A stretch of 38,546 nucleotides of DNA from an uncultured Clostridia bacterium (GTDB taxonomy: Bacteria; Bacillota; Clostridia; Oscillospirales; Acutalibacteraceae): positions 1 through 38,546 of the forward strand of contig CALWIU010000041.1 of the NCBI GenBank assembly GCA_944380845.1. Direction: 5' to 3'. Made by a program: the position numbers and the translations under genes. Position 1 is the stretch's first letter, and each line of letters starts with the position of its first letter. The notes beneath the pieces were generated by a model, which saw nothing but the letters and a program-made list of their open reading frames with translations, made no database searches and was not told the DNA's origin. This document shows positions 18,795 to 24,678 of the stretch, piece after piece.

Positions 18795-19487
18795 GTGGAC
18801 ATAACAACGGACAAGGCGCGGCATTTACTGAAAAAGACAGCCTGCCGGAAGGAAAAACCGTTTTTATATGATTGGAAAAATATAATAAAAAGAAAAAACA
18901 GCAAGTTTGCTGTTGTCCTTTGTGCATTTGCTTGTTTTTTGTATGCCTTTTGCCGCAGCTGAAAACACGGCTGCGGAATCGGACAAGGTGATTTCCTATT
19001 GTCCCGGCGATTTAAACGATGACGAAGTGATGCGCACTGATGACGCTTGGCTTTGCCTGCGCGAAGCTATGGGACAGGAAATACTGACGGCAGAGCAGAC
19101 CGTTACCGCACAGGTTGCCGGAAAAGCTGCCTTGACAACCGCCGCCTGCGTCAGATTTTGCGCGTCGCAGTTGGACTGGAAGAAATTTTGCAACTTACGG
19201 TGCAGATACAGGTGGGACAGCAGTGTGATGTTCAGGGATTAAAAACAAAGGTGCTCTATGGCTGGTGCTGCGATGGCGGCAATAAGCTGGATCAGATTAT
19301 TGTACAGGGTGGAGTGGTTTCTCCCAATGACAATATTTTCGGTGAGTCAATTCCTGGCGGCTCGTATCCATATTTTCCTTTTACGCCGGTAACTGCCGGT
19401 GCTTATTATTTTGTTTTCCATAACATAGGGCTGTTTGCTGATCAAATCCGGAATCGTTTCAAAATACGCTTGCATATTGTACAATAA
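18795..19487 (+). pseudogene. Degraded secreted dockerin-containing protein
   Basis: The likely start is GTG 18795 with a GGCGGTGAG SD. The first frame encodes a basic stretch (KNIIKRKNSKF) and the beginning of a signal peptide, then stops at 18960-18962. Removing one T from the T6 run at 18935-18940 joins it to the next frame, which gives CMPFAAAENTAAES, a plausible signal peptidase site, and then PGDLNDDEVMRTDDAWLCLREAMG, the first half of a type I dockerin. A second shift near 19145 (one base missing) is needed to read TTADLRQILRVAVGLEE, the second dockerin half, which continues to 19487. The two shifts compensate each other. The calcium-loop Asp residues of the second repeat are lost (QVAGKAALTTA), which suggests real decay. 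About 75 residues after the dockerin resemble nothing I know. Confidence 0.7.
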
Positions 19488-20645: not shown

Positions 20646-20690
20646 GACTGCCGCTCAGACAATTTTGTTTGGGCGGCAGTCCTTTTGTTT
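20646..20690 (+). terminator. Terminator after the dockerin protease gene
   Basis: The 17-bp stem (20646-20662 / 20665-20681, with two G·U pairs) has a very tight loop and is followed by CTTTTGTTTT. It separates the dockerin genes from the LicD module. Confidence 0.85.
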
Positions 20691-20743: not shown

Positions 20744-20772
20744 TTGCAAAGTTTTCCGTGCTGCTGTATAAT
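20744..20772 (+). promoter_or_regulatory. Promoter of the licD–cytidylyltransferase/kinase–flippase operon
   Basis: -35 TTGCAA (20744-20749), 17-bp spacer, -10 TATAAT (20767-20772); the start codon is 49 bp downstream. It shows the module is transcribed separately from the protease. Confidence 0.78.
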
Positions 20773-20820
20773 AAACTAAATATATTTTGGCAATAGACAT
20801 TCATAAGGGTTGGGTGGAAT

Positions 20821-21708
20821 ATGTTAACTGAGCAGCAGCTTTCAGTTTTGCGGCAGATACAGGATGTGGAACTGAAAATCCTGGTTGAGCTGGATCGCAT
20901 CTGTACCAAATATGACATAAAATATACCTTGAGCGGCGGCACGCTGTTGGGCGCGATCCGTCATAAGGATTTCATCCCGTGGGATGATGACATCGATTTG
21001 GATGTCAAAAGAGAGGATTTTTATAAGCTGCTGCGTGTTTTGCCGGACGAGCTGGGCGAAGACTTTGATTTCGTCAACTATGATGAGTTCGGCGATCATT
21101 TTTGTGATTTTATTCCTCGTATTTTTTATAAAAACTGTAAGGTCCAGAATTCCTTTACCATTGATGGCGGAGCAAGGAATATGGCCGGCGATGAGCGGAT
21201 GGATAAAATCTTTATTGAGCTGTACTGCCTGCATGACACCAAAAAAGGTCTTACCGTAAAGTTGCAGATCTTTTTGGTAAAAGTCATTTACGGCATGGCA
21301 ATGGCGCACCGAATCGGAAAAAAGCCGACAACCCATTATTCCCCTCTGCAAAAAGCGCAGGTCAAGGTGCTGACGAGCATTGGCAAACATGTGCCCATGA
21401 AAACCCTTTGCCGCTGGTATGAAAAGACCGTTAATATGGTGAAGACGGGGAAGGGGAATTTATATTTTAAGCCTTCTGTGCCGATTTGGGTTCAGGAAAA
21501 GAATGTTTTTCATAAAGATTGGTTCGACGAAGTCGTTCGCGTTCCCGTTCGCAATTATATGATCTACGCCCCGGCGAAATATCTGCAAATCTTAGAGTCG
21601 CTTTATGGCGATTGGAAGAAATTGCCGCCCGAAAAAAACCGCCGTCCGGATCATTTTTCTCTCGAGGGCGTTGAAATCTGGCAAGACGAAAGGAAAGTGA
21701 CGAAATGA
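20821..21708 (+). CDS. LicD family phosphotransferase
   Basis: A 295-residue LicD-family protein. The nucleotidyltransferase-like core is visible as YTLSGGTLLGAIRHKDFIPWDDDIDLDV, with G39-G40 and the metal-binding cluster D55, D56, D57, D59. LicD enzymes move a phospho-substituent such as phosphocholine from a CDP-activated donor onto glycans or teichoic acids. Here the next gene, overlapping by 4 bp (ATGA), encodes a cytidylyltransferase–kinase fusion that could supply such a donor, and a flippase follows. There is no signal peptide, so it acts at the cytoplasmic face before export. The exact group transferred cannot be read from sequence. Confidence 0.92.
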   Translation: MLTEQQLSVLRQIQDVELKILVELDRICTKYDIKYTLSGGTLLGAIRHKDFIPWDDDIDLDVKREDFYKLLRVLPDELGEDFDFVNYDEFGDHFCDFIPRIFYKNCKVQNSFTIDGGARNMAGDERMDKIFIELYCLHDTKKGLTVKLQIFLVKVIYGMAMAHRIGKKPTTHYSPLQKAQVKVLTSIGKHVPMKTLCRWYEKTVNMVKTGKGNLYFKPSVPIWVQEKNVFHKDWFDEVVRVPVRNYMIYAPAKYLQILESLYGDWKKLPPEKNRRPDHFSLEGVEIWQDERKVTK

Positions 21709-23309
21709 ATATCGTAATGATTATGGCTGGCGGAATCGGCAAACGCTTTGGTGCACCGATTCCGAAACAATATACCCTTTTAAAGGGCAGACCGGTGATT
21801 GATTATGTCATTGACGCGGCAAAAGGGTCAAAACTTGCGGATAAAATTGTAGTCGTGATCGACGAGCAGTGCATGAAATATTCCTCTGCGCTGAAAGATC
21901 CGACGCTGGATTTTGCTCCCAATGGCAAAGAACGGTATGATTCTGTCAAAAGCGGTTTTGATTATATCAAAAGTCATTATGTATGCAGCAAAGTCGTGAT
22001 TATGGATGCCGTTGCGCCTTTTGTTTATCCGGAGCTGATCGACGATTATTTTCGTAAGCTGGACGAGTATGACGCCGTCATCACCGCCCAAAAGCTGACC
22101 GGTGCGCTCGGCAATACGGATTTTGAACCGCTGGATCGTGAAAAATATTATATGACCCAGTCCCCGGAAGGGTTTGTTTTTGATAAAATCAGCGCTGTTC
22201 TTGACACCCATTTCCCCAGTCAGGAACTGGCGTGGCAGCTTCCGGAAGGTTCCAAGTTTTACTTGAATTTTGATTTCAAAAACAATTTGAAGTTAACCTA
22301 CGATTTTGAGCTGCAATATGCAGAATATATGCTGGATTATCTGCGCGGCAAGAAGATCAAGGGAAATTTAAAAATATATGATAAAAGTCAGTTTATTACA
22401 GAGGGAATCCGTTATTTCCTCATGCGTCTGTATCCCGACAAAACCGACGCATGGCTCGGGAAAATCGCATCTGAGTACAGCCGCCTTGCTGATCTTTGGG
22501 GGCTGAAATCCTTTATTCCCAGCCAGACCTCCCGCTATGGGCTGGTGCTTTTTGCGGAATCAGAGATCTACGGCGATGTGGTCGTCAAATTCATCCCGGA
22601 TTTTGTGGATCGCTTTGAAACGGAGATCGCCTCTTATCAGGAACTTTCCCCGGATTATATGTGTGAGTTCCTCGGCTATGACGACGCCGCACGCGCCATG
22701 CTGCTGCGCCGTGTATCCCCGGCAAAATATGCTGATTTCAACGACAACATCCTGTTGACGGAGTTTTTTGATAAAGTGGACAAAACCATCCGTCCGATAA
22801 AAGCGGTGAATGAACCGGAGCGTTTTCTGGATTATTATGCCGACTTGCAGCAGAAATTGAAAGATATTGACACCGTTCCGTTCTTCCGCGACCGGATCAA
22901 AGAACATTTGCAGACGGCAATCGCCATGTACGATCGGCATTTTTCCGATTCGCCGCTGTATCTTTGCCATGGTGATTTGCATGCGTTCAATATTATTCAG
23001 GGCAAGGACGGATATGTTGCTGTCGATCCGCTGGGCATCCGCGCCCCCAGAGAATTGGAATATGTTCGCTTCATCCGGAATGATATTTTAAACATTCGAT
23101 CTTTCGGTATGCGCGAGCGTCTGAACCTCCTTTTGTCCTATTTTTCCCGGTGGGCGGGCAAAAAGAGCCTTTTGCTTTTCCTGTATATCGACACGGTTTA
23201 TGTGACCTTTAACTGTACTTTTGAACACCCCGATGACGGCCCGACGGGCTATAACCTGAAACTTTTAAATGTCATCCGTCAGATGATCGATTTGGATCTG
23301 ATGAATTGA
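21705..23309 (+). CDS. Cytidylyltransferase (TarI/IspD-like) fused to an APH-type small-molecule kinase
   Basis: A 534-residue two-domain protein. Residues 1-225 are an IspD/TarI-type nucleotidyltransferase: MAGGIGKRFG (8-16) with K21 in PIPKQY, then MDAVAPFV and MTQSPEGF. Residues about 265-520 have an aminoglycoside-phosphotransferase/choline-kinase fold: probable ATP lysine K295 in VVVKFIP, Glu in RFETEIASY, catalytic loop HGDLHAFN (422-429, D424) and metal-binding D441 in VAVDPLGIRAPRELEY. The inference is that the kinase phosphorylates an alcohol and the other domain couples it to CTP, giving a CDP-alcohol. In Lic systems these steps are separate proteins, LicA and LicC. MAGG rather than the usual LAAG, and the neighbours LicD and flippase, argue against a role as the MEP-pathway IspD, though that remains possible. 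Confidence 0.85.
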   Translation: MNIVMIMAGGIGKRFGAPIPKQYTLLKGRPVIDYVIDAAKGSKLADKIVVVIDEQCMKYSSALKDPTLDFAPNGKERYDSVKSGFDYIKSHYVCSKVVIMDAVAPFVYPELIDDYFRKLDEYDAVITAQKLTGALGNTDFEPLDREKYYMTQSPEGFVFDKISAVLDTHFPSQELAWQLPEGSKFYLNFDFKNNLKLTYDFELQYAEYMLDYLRGKKIKGNLKIYDKSQFITEGIRYFLMRLYPDKTDAWLGKIASEYSRLADLWGLKSFIPSQTSRYGLVLFAESEIYGDVVVKFIPDFVDRFETEIASYQELSPDYMCEFLGYDDAARAMLLRRVSPAKYADFNDNILLTEFFDKVDKTIRPIKAVNEPERFLDYYADLQQKLKDIDTVPFFRDRIKEHLQTAIAMYDRHFSDSPLYLCHGDLHAFNIIQGKDGYVAVDPLGIRAPRELEYVRFIRNDILNIRSFGMRERLNLLLSYFSRWAGKKSLLLFLYIDTVYVTFNCTFEHPDDGPTGYNLKLLNVIRQMIDLDLMN

Positions 23310-23327
23310 CAGTAGGAGACTTTTTTC

Positions 23328-24602
23328 ATGGGAAAAAAGAGAAAATATGCGAATGTCGCGTCTGATATGATTTTCAGCATCGCCGCCGTGGTGGTGCTGA
23401 ACGCGGTCATTCAGCTTTTTATTTATCCCTCCTTTAACAGCAAACTCGGGCCGGAGGCCTATGGAGAAGCGATCACGGTGATGTCCATGGTCGCTGTTAT
23501 GGGCATCGGATTTGGAATTGCCGCCAACTATTCACGCATGGTCATGAGCACAAAAAAGCGTGATGTGAAGGGCGATTACAATATCTTTCTTTTGATGATC
23601 TGGGTGCTTTGTGTGCCGGTAGCATTTTTTACCGCCAAAGTATTCGTTTCTGAGTTCTCCGTTCTCAACGCGGTTTGCATTGCTCTTTTGATGATCAGCA
23701 CGGTGACCCGCTATTACAGTGACGCGGAGTTCAAACTGAACATCAACTATAAGGGATATTTTGTTTATAATATCTGCATTGCGGCGGGGTACAGCCTCGG
23801 AATGCCGATCTTTTTTGCAACCGGAAATTGGATGATCCCGATGATTATCGGTGAGACGGCGTCAGTGGTGTATACAGCCATCCGCGGCACTTTGTACCGC
23901 CGGCCTCTTTTGAAAAAGAGCGAATACTTCAAAGAGGATTTCAAATCCTTCGGCGTTTTGTCCTGTTCCTATGTTGCAGACACGCTGATCCAAAATGCAG
24001 ACCGCCTGCTTTTAAACGCCATGTTCAGCGACGGCACGATGGTCACAACCTTTTATAATGCCGCGTTGATCGGCAAGGTTATTGCGCTTTTGACAACTTC
24101 GCTGAATTCGGTTCTGATCGGGTACCTTGCCAAGTTCGACGGCAAATTTACCAAAAAGTTTTACAACCTGATTACTGCTGCGCTCTTGCTGGTTGGTATT
24201 GTTGCCGCTTTGGCGTGCACATTGGTGTCGCATGTTTTTATCCGCATTATGTATCCGGATACTTATGAGGCGTGCCGGCCGTACTTTTTGGTCGCCAACG
24301 CCGGACAGGTCCTTTATTTCATCTCCAGCACGATCATGATCGTCGTTCTGCGTTTCGCAGATGAAAAATACCAAATGCAAATGAATGTTCTTTATACCGT
24401 TTTGTATCTGGTCGTCGTGCCGGTTTGTACTTATTTCTTCCAGATCTGGGGGCTTGCTTACGGTATTTTGGCTGTGAATTTAACAAAGTTCCTGATCGTA
24501 TATTTCATCGGTCTCTGGCAGCTGGGCAAACGCAACCGGCTACAGACAACGAGTGATTCCGACGGTGAAGACATGGATGCCTTTACTCGTCCCGGTCAGT
24601 AA
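23328..24602 (+). CDS. Polysaccharide flippase (Wzx-like, MOP superfamily)
   Basis: A 424-residue polytopic membrane protein with about 12 hydrophobic segments spaced as in oligosaccharide-unit flippases of the MOP superfamily. A polar Arg/Lys-rich start precedes the first segment. It likely flips a lipid-linked glycan, already decorated by the upstream LicD enzyme, across the membrane. It is 18 bp downstream of the cytidylyltransferase–kinase gene with SD GTAGGAGA. It has no close relative in the window, and no glycosyltransferase or Wzy-type polymerase is encoded beside it, so the glycan must be built by genes elsewhere. Confidence 0.88.
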   Translation: MGKKRKYANVASDMIFSIAAVVVLNAVIQLFIYPSFNSKLGPEAYGEAITVMSMVAVMGIGFGIAANYSRMVMSTKKRDVKGDYNIFLLMIWVLCVPVAFFTAKVFVSEFSVLNAVCIALLMISTVTRYYSDAEFKLNINYKGYFVYNICIAAGYSLGMPIFFATGNWMIPMIIGETASVVYTAIRGTLYRRPLLKKSEYFKEDFKSFGVLSCSYVADTLIQNADRLLLNAMFSDGTMVTTFYNAALIGKVIALLTTSLNSVLIGYLAKFDGKFTKKFYNLITAALLLVGIVAALACTLVSHVFIRIMYPDTYEACRPYFLVANAGQVLYFISSTIMIVVLRFADEKYQMQMNVLYTVLYLVVVPVCTYFFQIWGLAYGILAVNLTKFLIVYFIGLWQLGKRNRLQTTSDSDGEDMDAFTRPGQ

Positions 24603-24649: not shown

Positions 24650-24678
24650 TTGCAAATTCCGGTGAAATGAGATAAAAT
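24650..24678 (+). promoter_or_regulatory. Promoter of the parvulin-type foldase gene
   Basis: -35 TTGCAA (24650-24655), 17-bp spacer, -10 TAAAAT (24673-24678), 51 bp upstream of the ATG at 24730. Confidence 0.65.

Follow-up and report, generated by a model that had tools for sequence, protein, structure and literature searches.

A cytidylyltransferase-kinase fusion beside LicD in gut Clostridia, a candidate supplier of CDP-alcohol for surface glycans

Background

HldE, FKP and RibF are single proteins that unite a kinase with nucleotidyl transfer, but their folds and substrates differ from those of the protein treated here, a fusion of an IspD/TarI-like cytidylyltransferase (CT) with a kinase domain, which is encoded together with a LicD-family gene and a flippase-like gene in a stretch of 38,546 nucleotides (the window) from an uncultured Clostridia bacterium of the family Acutalibacteraceae (contig CALWIU010000041.1 of assembly GCA_944380845.1, below G000). 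LicCA of Treponema denticola is a kinase-CT fusion of the cytidine diphosphate (CDP)-choline pathway (PMC8590670), and the view of an earlier, sequence-only reading of the window that kinase and CT are separate in known phosphocholine systems is thus not borne out. LicCA resembles the window protein in carrying CT and kinase in one polypeptide, but it makes CDP-choline, whereas the window fusion, compared with it by description and not by sequence, has a CT of IspD/TarI type and no choline-kinase motif.

CTs of the IspD/TarI superfamily are also known as partners of LicD proteins. It has been proposed that a LicD protein and a TarI homologue serve ribitol phosphate in EPA (PMC7188991), and in that model the TarI/TarJ supply of CDP-ribitol resembles the window unit in combining a CT of this superfamily with a flippase and with the LicD or PF04464 transferases that it feeds. 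The fusion unit differs in having no TarJ-like reductase, a fused kinase instead, and a CT that scores below the TarI cut-off and falls in another clade. ISPD (CRPPA), working with FKTN/FKRP, is likewise an IspD-like CT that makes CDP-polyol for LicD-family transferases (PMC4873967); the same source mentions bacterial ISPD-LicD and reductase-ISPD fusions and, from its authors' unpublished data, FGGY as a weak ribitol kinase. Unlike the window fusion, ISPD is given no kinase domain in the available part of that paper, its ribitol phosphate coming from elsewhere. A LicD-family polyol-phosphate polymerase has been reported (PMC11666461), and CpgD, the CDP-glycerate synthase of Caulobacter, shows that CDP-alcohol donors extend beyond choline, ribitol and glycerol (PMC12275187); unlike the window fusion, CpgD belongs to COG1213 and not to IspD, and no fused kinase is described for it in the text available. 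Among the papers listed in searches of an open-licence library, from which most subscription papers are absent, none describes an IspD/TarI-kinase fusion. The module described here is real, recurrent and coherent; kinase-CT fusion as such is already known from LicCA, and what is new is a variant of CDP-alcohol donor supply.

Proposed function of the fusion

We propose, with moderate confidence, that the 534-amino-acid protein is a bifunctional alcohol kinase and CTP:alcohol-phosphate cytidylyltransferase, which would provide the donor for surface glycans that are teichoic-acid-like or decorated by phosphodiesters. In the scheme that we infer, the C-terminal kinase domain, of the aminoglycoside phosphotransferase (APH) fold, would use ATP to phosphorylate an alcohol that is small and probably polyhydroxylated. 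The IspD/TarI-like domain at the N-terminus would couple the alcohol phosphate to CTP, giving CDP-alcohol and pyrophosphate. LicD would then move the alcohol phosphate from the CDP donor onto a glycan that is most likely linked to a lipid, forming a phosphodiester, and the product of the third gene would flip the finished glycan outward. Direct phosphorylation would stand in for the step by which TarJ reduces a ketose phosphate when CDP-ribitol is supplied in the classical way, and in relatives the same donor enzyme would work alongside PF04464 (TagB/TagF/TarL-type) transferases. A polyhydroxy alcohol is favoured because the CT is of IspD/TarI type, PF04464 proteins occur as partners and the kinase is akin to methylthioribose kinase and APH(6). 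The use of CDP-polyols by LicD proteins, documented or proposed (PMC4873967, PMC7188991, PMC11666461), supports this proposal.

A bolder version, which we put forward tentatively and regard as rather unlikely, is that the fusion makes by direct phosphorylation a CDP-alcohol new to bacterial surface polymers (not choline, ribitol or glycerol), a donor that LicD, PF04464 and PF14907 proteins would use in gut and rumen Clostridia. PF14907, which Pfam lists as an uncharacterised nucleotidyltransferase family, would in that case act as a CDP-alcohol phosphotransferase, a role for which it is a candidate.

Recurrence and genomic context

A contig scan yielded at least 24 loci, namely 15 fusions (L042-L051, L053, L057, L059, L063 and L064; L053 is JAMPEQ010000012.1), eight close single-domain CTs (L052, L054-L056, L058 and L060-L062) and one distant match (L065). 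Together with the window and locus L070 of genome G526, at least 17 fusion loci were collected; 16 of the fusions are intact, and that of L064 carries a frameshift in its CT part. Counts out of 17 refer to these collected loci, and counts out of 12 to units among which the window genus is counted once; flanks reached at most 8 kb and several were ended by contig ends.

At least one LicD, PF04464 or PF14907 gene is present in 16 of 17 fusion loci: LicD in nine (four of 12 units), PF04464 in six (six units) and PF14907 or a homologue in three (three units), so that co-occurrence with LicD in other genomes, the lack of which would have spoken against the sequence-only reading, is indeed found. 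All six loci of the window genus (the window and L042-L046) have the order LicD, fusion, flippase, the LicD gene of L046 being masked by an antisense open reading frame (ORF) and recovered by tblastn. Elsewhere we found the fusion followed by LicD (L048); LicD, GT8, a PF01943 flippase and the fusion (L049); a PF00953 (TagO/WecA-type) gene adjoining the fusion, then PF04464 and PF01943 (L047); PF01943, PF04464 and the fusion (L070); a GT2-PF04464 double protein, then the fusion (L051 and L063); the fusion, an acyltransferase and PF04464 (L053); and the fusion, then PF04464 (L064). In L057 (1906-3042) and L059 (6814-7989) a PF14907 gene stands directly beside the fusion, where LicD or PF04464 stands elsewhere. 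The contig of L050 begins 298 bases before the fusion, and nothing was recognised after it.

Among 11 loci with a single-domain CT (L027-L029 and the eight of the scan), eight keep LicD-CT-flippase; L028 has LicD only, L029 has PF04464, and L062, on a 3.6 kb contig, has neither. In six of the 11 (L052, L056, L058, L060, L061 and L027) a glycerophosphodiesterase gene (PF03009) stands divergently beside LicD, one of them Pfam-checked and the others 78-82% identical to it. FkbM-type methyltransferase genes likewise lie divergently upstream of the LicD modules of these six loci. Inositol-type genes by L028, seen by eye, were dropped as a substrate hint, being convergent and seen once.

Full-length fusions occur in five of 200 genomes sampled from the window's family and in three of 394 sampled from its order, all three in the window's family; in a class sample of 391 genomes the kinase profile found a fusion in the window's own genome, its only other match being a standalone kinase in G578. 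These three samples overlap. Thirteen genomes that carry a CT of this kind or of its sister group were searched for the kinase domain; it is present in the five that have a fusion, and the other eight lack it. No fusion was found in a phage collection, where 14 records match the CT part only (each at less than 60% identity and over less than 80% of the query), or in a plasmid collection, where four records match the CT part only, and the viral contigs held no relative of the fusion. A named strain, Eubacterium coprostanoligenes ATCC 51222, carries the fusion relative L051 (35% identity over most of the length).

The alternative that survives best, possible in our view and still rather doubtful, is that glycerol 3-phosphate or ribitol 5-phosphate is formed directly by the kinase and that the CT takes the place of TagD or TarI where a genome has neither, giving CDP-glycerol or CDP-ribitol by a new route. 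Neither TagD nor a TarJ-like match was found in three window-genus genomes (G000, G043 and G162) that keep LicD and PF04464 genes, the assembly of G000 being 87% complete and those of two congeners 96% and 90%; the sequence-only reading had likewise seen no TarJ-like reductase or glycerol-phosphate gene next to the unit. TarJ-like reductases were found in none of these three genomes and in two of the 11 searched, with a TarJ query that was labelled from its position behind TarI and that gives only sub-cut-off dehydrogenase matches in NCBIfam. Loss of the kinase from single-CT loci would be tolerable if its product were a common metabolite such as glycerol 3-phosphate, and the divergent glycerophosphodiesterase genes would fit. 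However, the fusion would be redundant in G034, which has TagD, an IspD beside IspF and a TarI accompanied by a TarJ-like gene, and in G021, which has TagD, unless it is a locus-specific duplicate supply, as it may be in G034. By parsimony only, the gene set of G034 therefore suggests an alcohol that is neither methylerythritol, ribitol nor glycerol.

The kinase domain

Weak Pfam matches to APH, RIO1, EcKL and APH_6_hur lie between amino acids 290 and 471 of the fusion. Of 15 kinase domains compared with Pfam, 11 match APH, 11 RIO1, nine APH_6_hur (best 1.8e-6) and one Choline_kinase PF01633 (0.0015). Residues K295, E307, H422-G423-D424, N429, D441-P442 and G444 are invariant in all 15 aligned fusions and are also kept in L070, which stands outside that alignment, so that Lys, Glu, HGDxxxxN and DP are present in 16 of 16 intact fusions. 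The ATP site is therefore not degenerate, an outcome that the sequence-only reading had named as contrary to its view. The AlphaFold2 model of the kinase domain is of high confidence (pLDDT 94.6, pTM 0.91) and that of the full-length fusion has a mean pLDDT of 84.1. Foldseek gives LicA (4r77, E 2.6e-9) as the top match of the kinase model, and macrolide phosphotransferases, choline kinases and methylthioribose kinase are also among the nearest solved folds. A search by sequence profile instead puts methylthioribose kinase (1.9e-5) closest among proteins of solved structure.

The kinship of fold with LicA, the LicD gene of the unit and the precedent of LicCA (PMC8590670) would also suit a phosphocholine or phosphoethanolamine module, a convergent version of the T. 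denticola enzyme in which the kinase would form phosphocholine (or phosphoethanolamine), the CT would go on to CDP-choline and LicD would modify a glycan. We consider this improbable, and choline, one of the alcohols named by the sequence-only reading, is disfavoured. The choline-kinase motif as given in the available text of PMC4364537 was found in 0 of 16 intact fusions, and so was the (CS)HND form of Brenner's motif; Tyr197 of the LicA choline pocket corresponds, by an inferred mapping (an ungapped count from the Asp of DP), to the invariant G444; PF01633 matches a single kinase domain of the 15; the CT is IspD/TarI-like (IspD, 4.7e-22) and not LicC-like; and six of 12 independent fusion units have transferases of PF04464, a family known for polyol phosphates. 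As the leading model, phosphocholine was rejected through the published motif and Pfam. In a scan of seven window proteins, those of the module and its surroundings, no choline permease LicB was found; no search for it was made elsewhere in the genome.

It is very improbable that the substrate of the kinase is an intracellular protein or a xenobiotic, aminoglycoside-like or other, and that its fusion to the CT is incidental: the APH_6_hur and RIO1 matches and the homologue in G578, which stands alone away from glycan genes, are in keeping with such a role, but the fusion is kept across two deep clades with its domains co-inherited, and LicD, PF04464 or PF14907 genes accompany nearly every fusion locus.

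The cytidylyltransferase domain

The N-terminal part matches IspD (PF01128) over amino acids 3-210 and NTP_transf_3 at 1e-9. Its best NCBIfam match is ispD, with 95.5 bits below the cut-off of 181.3, and against TarI (NF001183) it scores 61.8 bits, the cut-off being 166 and the TarIs of L107 and L108 scoring 357 and 369. Searched with the profile of the CT family, the PDB gave TarI (4jis, 1e-20) as the best relative, and also IspD. TarI and IspD act on polyol phosphates.

In a tree of 51 CT rows, a branch with 100/100 support splits the fusion CTs, their single-domain relatives and the sister group B1 from the rest, which comprises the IspF-adjacent IspDs (adjacency judged from coordinates), the TarIs of L107 and L108 and other relatives. 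The tree is rooted only at its midpoint, and its long branches are a noted risk; L064 (frameshifted CT) and L055 (a near-copy of L025) were left out, and the CT of L071 was missed by the ORF caller. The fusions are not monophyletic: single CTs nest among them, which takes at least three changes on the CT tree, most simply one fusion event and two kinase losses, with three gains as the less simple possibility. The kinase tree, drawn without L070 and L064, has the same two main clades.

Least probable of all, and rejected, is that the CT is the organism's IspD of the methylerythritol phosphate (MEP) pathway and the kinase has an unrelated task: ispD is the best NCBIfam match and no canonical IspD is seen in the window genome, whose other IspD-family gene scores as TarI though IspF is present, but the score lies far under the ispD cut-off, four genomes with the same CT family (G034, G021, G071 and G526) have a separate IspD beside IspF, the context is one of LicD and PF04464, and the fully supported branch sets the CT apart from IspF-adjacent IspDs, so that the grouping with MEP-pathway IspD that would have told against the sequence-only reading is not found. 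That other gene, G000:C25 (L036 6723-7574), is the only further IspD-family gene of the window genome above the Pfam cut-off; its assignment as MEP IspD was withdrawn, as NCBIfam puts it in the TarI subfamily, and with IspF present and no TarJ-like match it may, by elimination, still serve the MEP step. Its equivalents in G043, G080, G190, G056 and G175 fall on the TarI side (tree only), an annotation trap.

Points against the proposal and its implications

Several observations weigh against a supply of CDP-alcohol by the fusion. CTs with 60-69% identity exist without a kinase in the 11 single-CT loci, and the kinase is therefore dispensable there or its product supplied from elsewhere. The standalone kinase of G578, a genome of another family, matches the kinase profile at 2.2e-24, and no LicD or CT was seen around it (neighbours judged by eye). 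No recurrent polyol-metabolism or transport gene lies near the fusions to mark the alcohol. A full-length LicD gene lies 6.4 kb upstream in L064 and a distant PF14907 homologue (1214-2350) lies 5.7 kb upstream, on the other strand, in L049, both recognised by BLAST and not by Pfam. In the full-length model the CT loops are of low confidence, and the Arg of the D-x-x-R-P motif (IspD/TarI) is Ala in nine of 16 intact fusions and Arg in seven, and the two clades may therefore have different substrates. The assignment of the third gene is weak: PF01943 (Wzx-type flippase) is matched by one of 12 family members (2.8e-5) and not by the window protein, for which no Pfam match is better than E 0.31, and the flippase profile found no useful match in the PDB; by sequence, the Wzx-like flippase of the sequence-only reading is thus only weakly supported. 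A flippase-like gene comes third in all six congeneric loci and in eight of the 11 single-CT loci.

If the proposed bifunctional role is right, these bacteria would make the CDP-alcohol donors of surface glycans modified by phosphodiesters by a route that needs no reductase, in a compact two-domain enzyme whose alcohol could be found through a simple substrate panel. E. coprostanoligenes ATCC 51222 would offer a handle on the surface polymers of uncultured gut bacteria, and IspD-family genes of gut Clostridia would often not be isoprenoid genes, a warning for annotation.

The gene unit in the window

Coordinates are collected in Table 1. The sequence-only reading described three tightly packed genes, a LicD transferase among them and one protein joining an IspD/TarI-like CT to an APH/choline-kinase-like domain, and all of this holds: the genes share a strand, the start of the fusion ORF overlaps the end of LicD by four bases, and 18 bases separate the fusion from the flippase-like gene. 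That reading began the unit at 20744, the first base of a promoter-like site. The LicD protein scores 92.3 bits against the curated PF04991 cut-off of 22.6 and is the sole LicD match in G000 (E <= 0.01). Parts of the unit are 69-94% identical across five congeneric contigs (L042-L046), all of which keep the three genes, and ratios of nonsynonymous to synonymous divergence (dN/dS) are 0.017-0.13 for the computable pairs among the six of 15 listed for each gene (with saturated dS the ratios are rough); the three genes are therefore not chance ORFs.

Table 1. Features of the unit and its boundaries in the window
Feature	Position	Strand	Remarks
LicD-family phosphotransferase gene	20821..21708	+	295 aa; PF04991 6.4e-26
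CT-kinase fusion gene	21705..23309	+	534 aa, one chain with both domains
IspD/TarI-like CT domain	21705..22352	+	aa 1-216 of fusion; PF01128 4.7e-22, separate clade
APH/choline-kinase-fold small-molecule kinase domain	22386..23306	+	aa 228-534 of fusion
Flippase-like protein gene, probable exporter of lipid-linked glycan	23328..24602	+	424 aa
Terminator-like hairpin, upstream unit boundary	20646..20681	+	16-pair stem, T-rich tail; consensus match only
Promoter-like site TTGCAA-17-TATAAT	20744..20772	+	10/12 matches; consensus match only
Promoter-like site TTGCAA-17-TAAAAT of the next gene, unit boundary	24650..24678	+	9/12 matches; consensus match only

The hairpin lies between the unit and an upstream gene for a dockerin-bearing papain-family protease, and the downstream gene, preceded by its own promoter-like site, encodes a peptidyl-prolyl isomerase (PPIase)-domain protein. 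The stretch holds nine promoter-like sites (7.2 +/- 2.5 in shuffles) and eight terminator-like sites (5.5 +/- 2.3), an enrichment so slight that these sites are hints. Two ORFs that overlap in different frames at 18907-19487 may belong to a single broken gene; in the first, a dockerin-like stretch was noticed by eye.

Related modules

A second recurrent module consists of an IspD/TarI-like CT, a 2-hydroxyacid dehydrogenase (PF00389/PF02826) and a protein of about 650 amino acids with a C-terminal LicD domain. It was Pfam-checked in L030 (3192-8045) and L109 (2644-7587), both also with a PF04464-type gene, and seen by eye in L033 (3854-7581), L071 (7618-10631), L111 (843-4557) and L035 (1134-2837), the last with no LicD protein of that size seen. 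Two separate CT clades (B1 and B2) share this hydroxyacid-dehydrogenase partnership, and the module may make a CDP-hydroxyacid. In a third module, found in G186 and G075, the CT is accompanied by proteins of NAD-dependent epimerase/dehydratase type and class II aldolase type (PF00596; L110 5124-7594, Pfam-checked, and L112 3530-5962, by eye). Finally, adjacent IspD- and LicD-family genes of some Flandersviridae gut phages have been read as isoprenoid and teichoic acid genes (PMC8008677); a joint CDP-alcohol role looks more natural for this pair.

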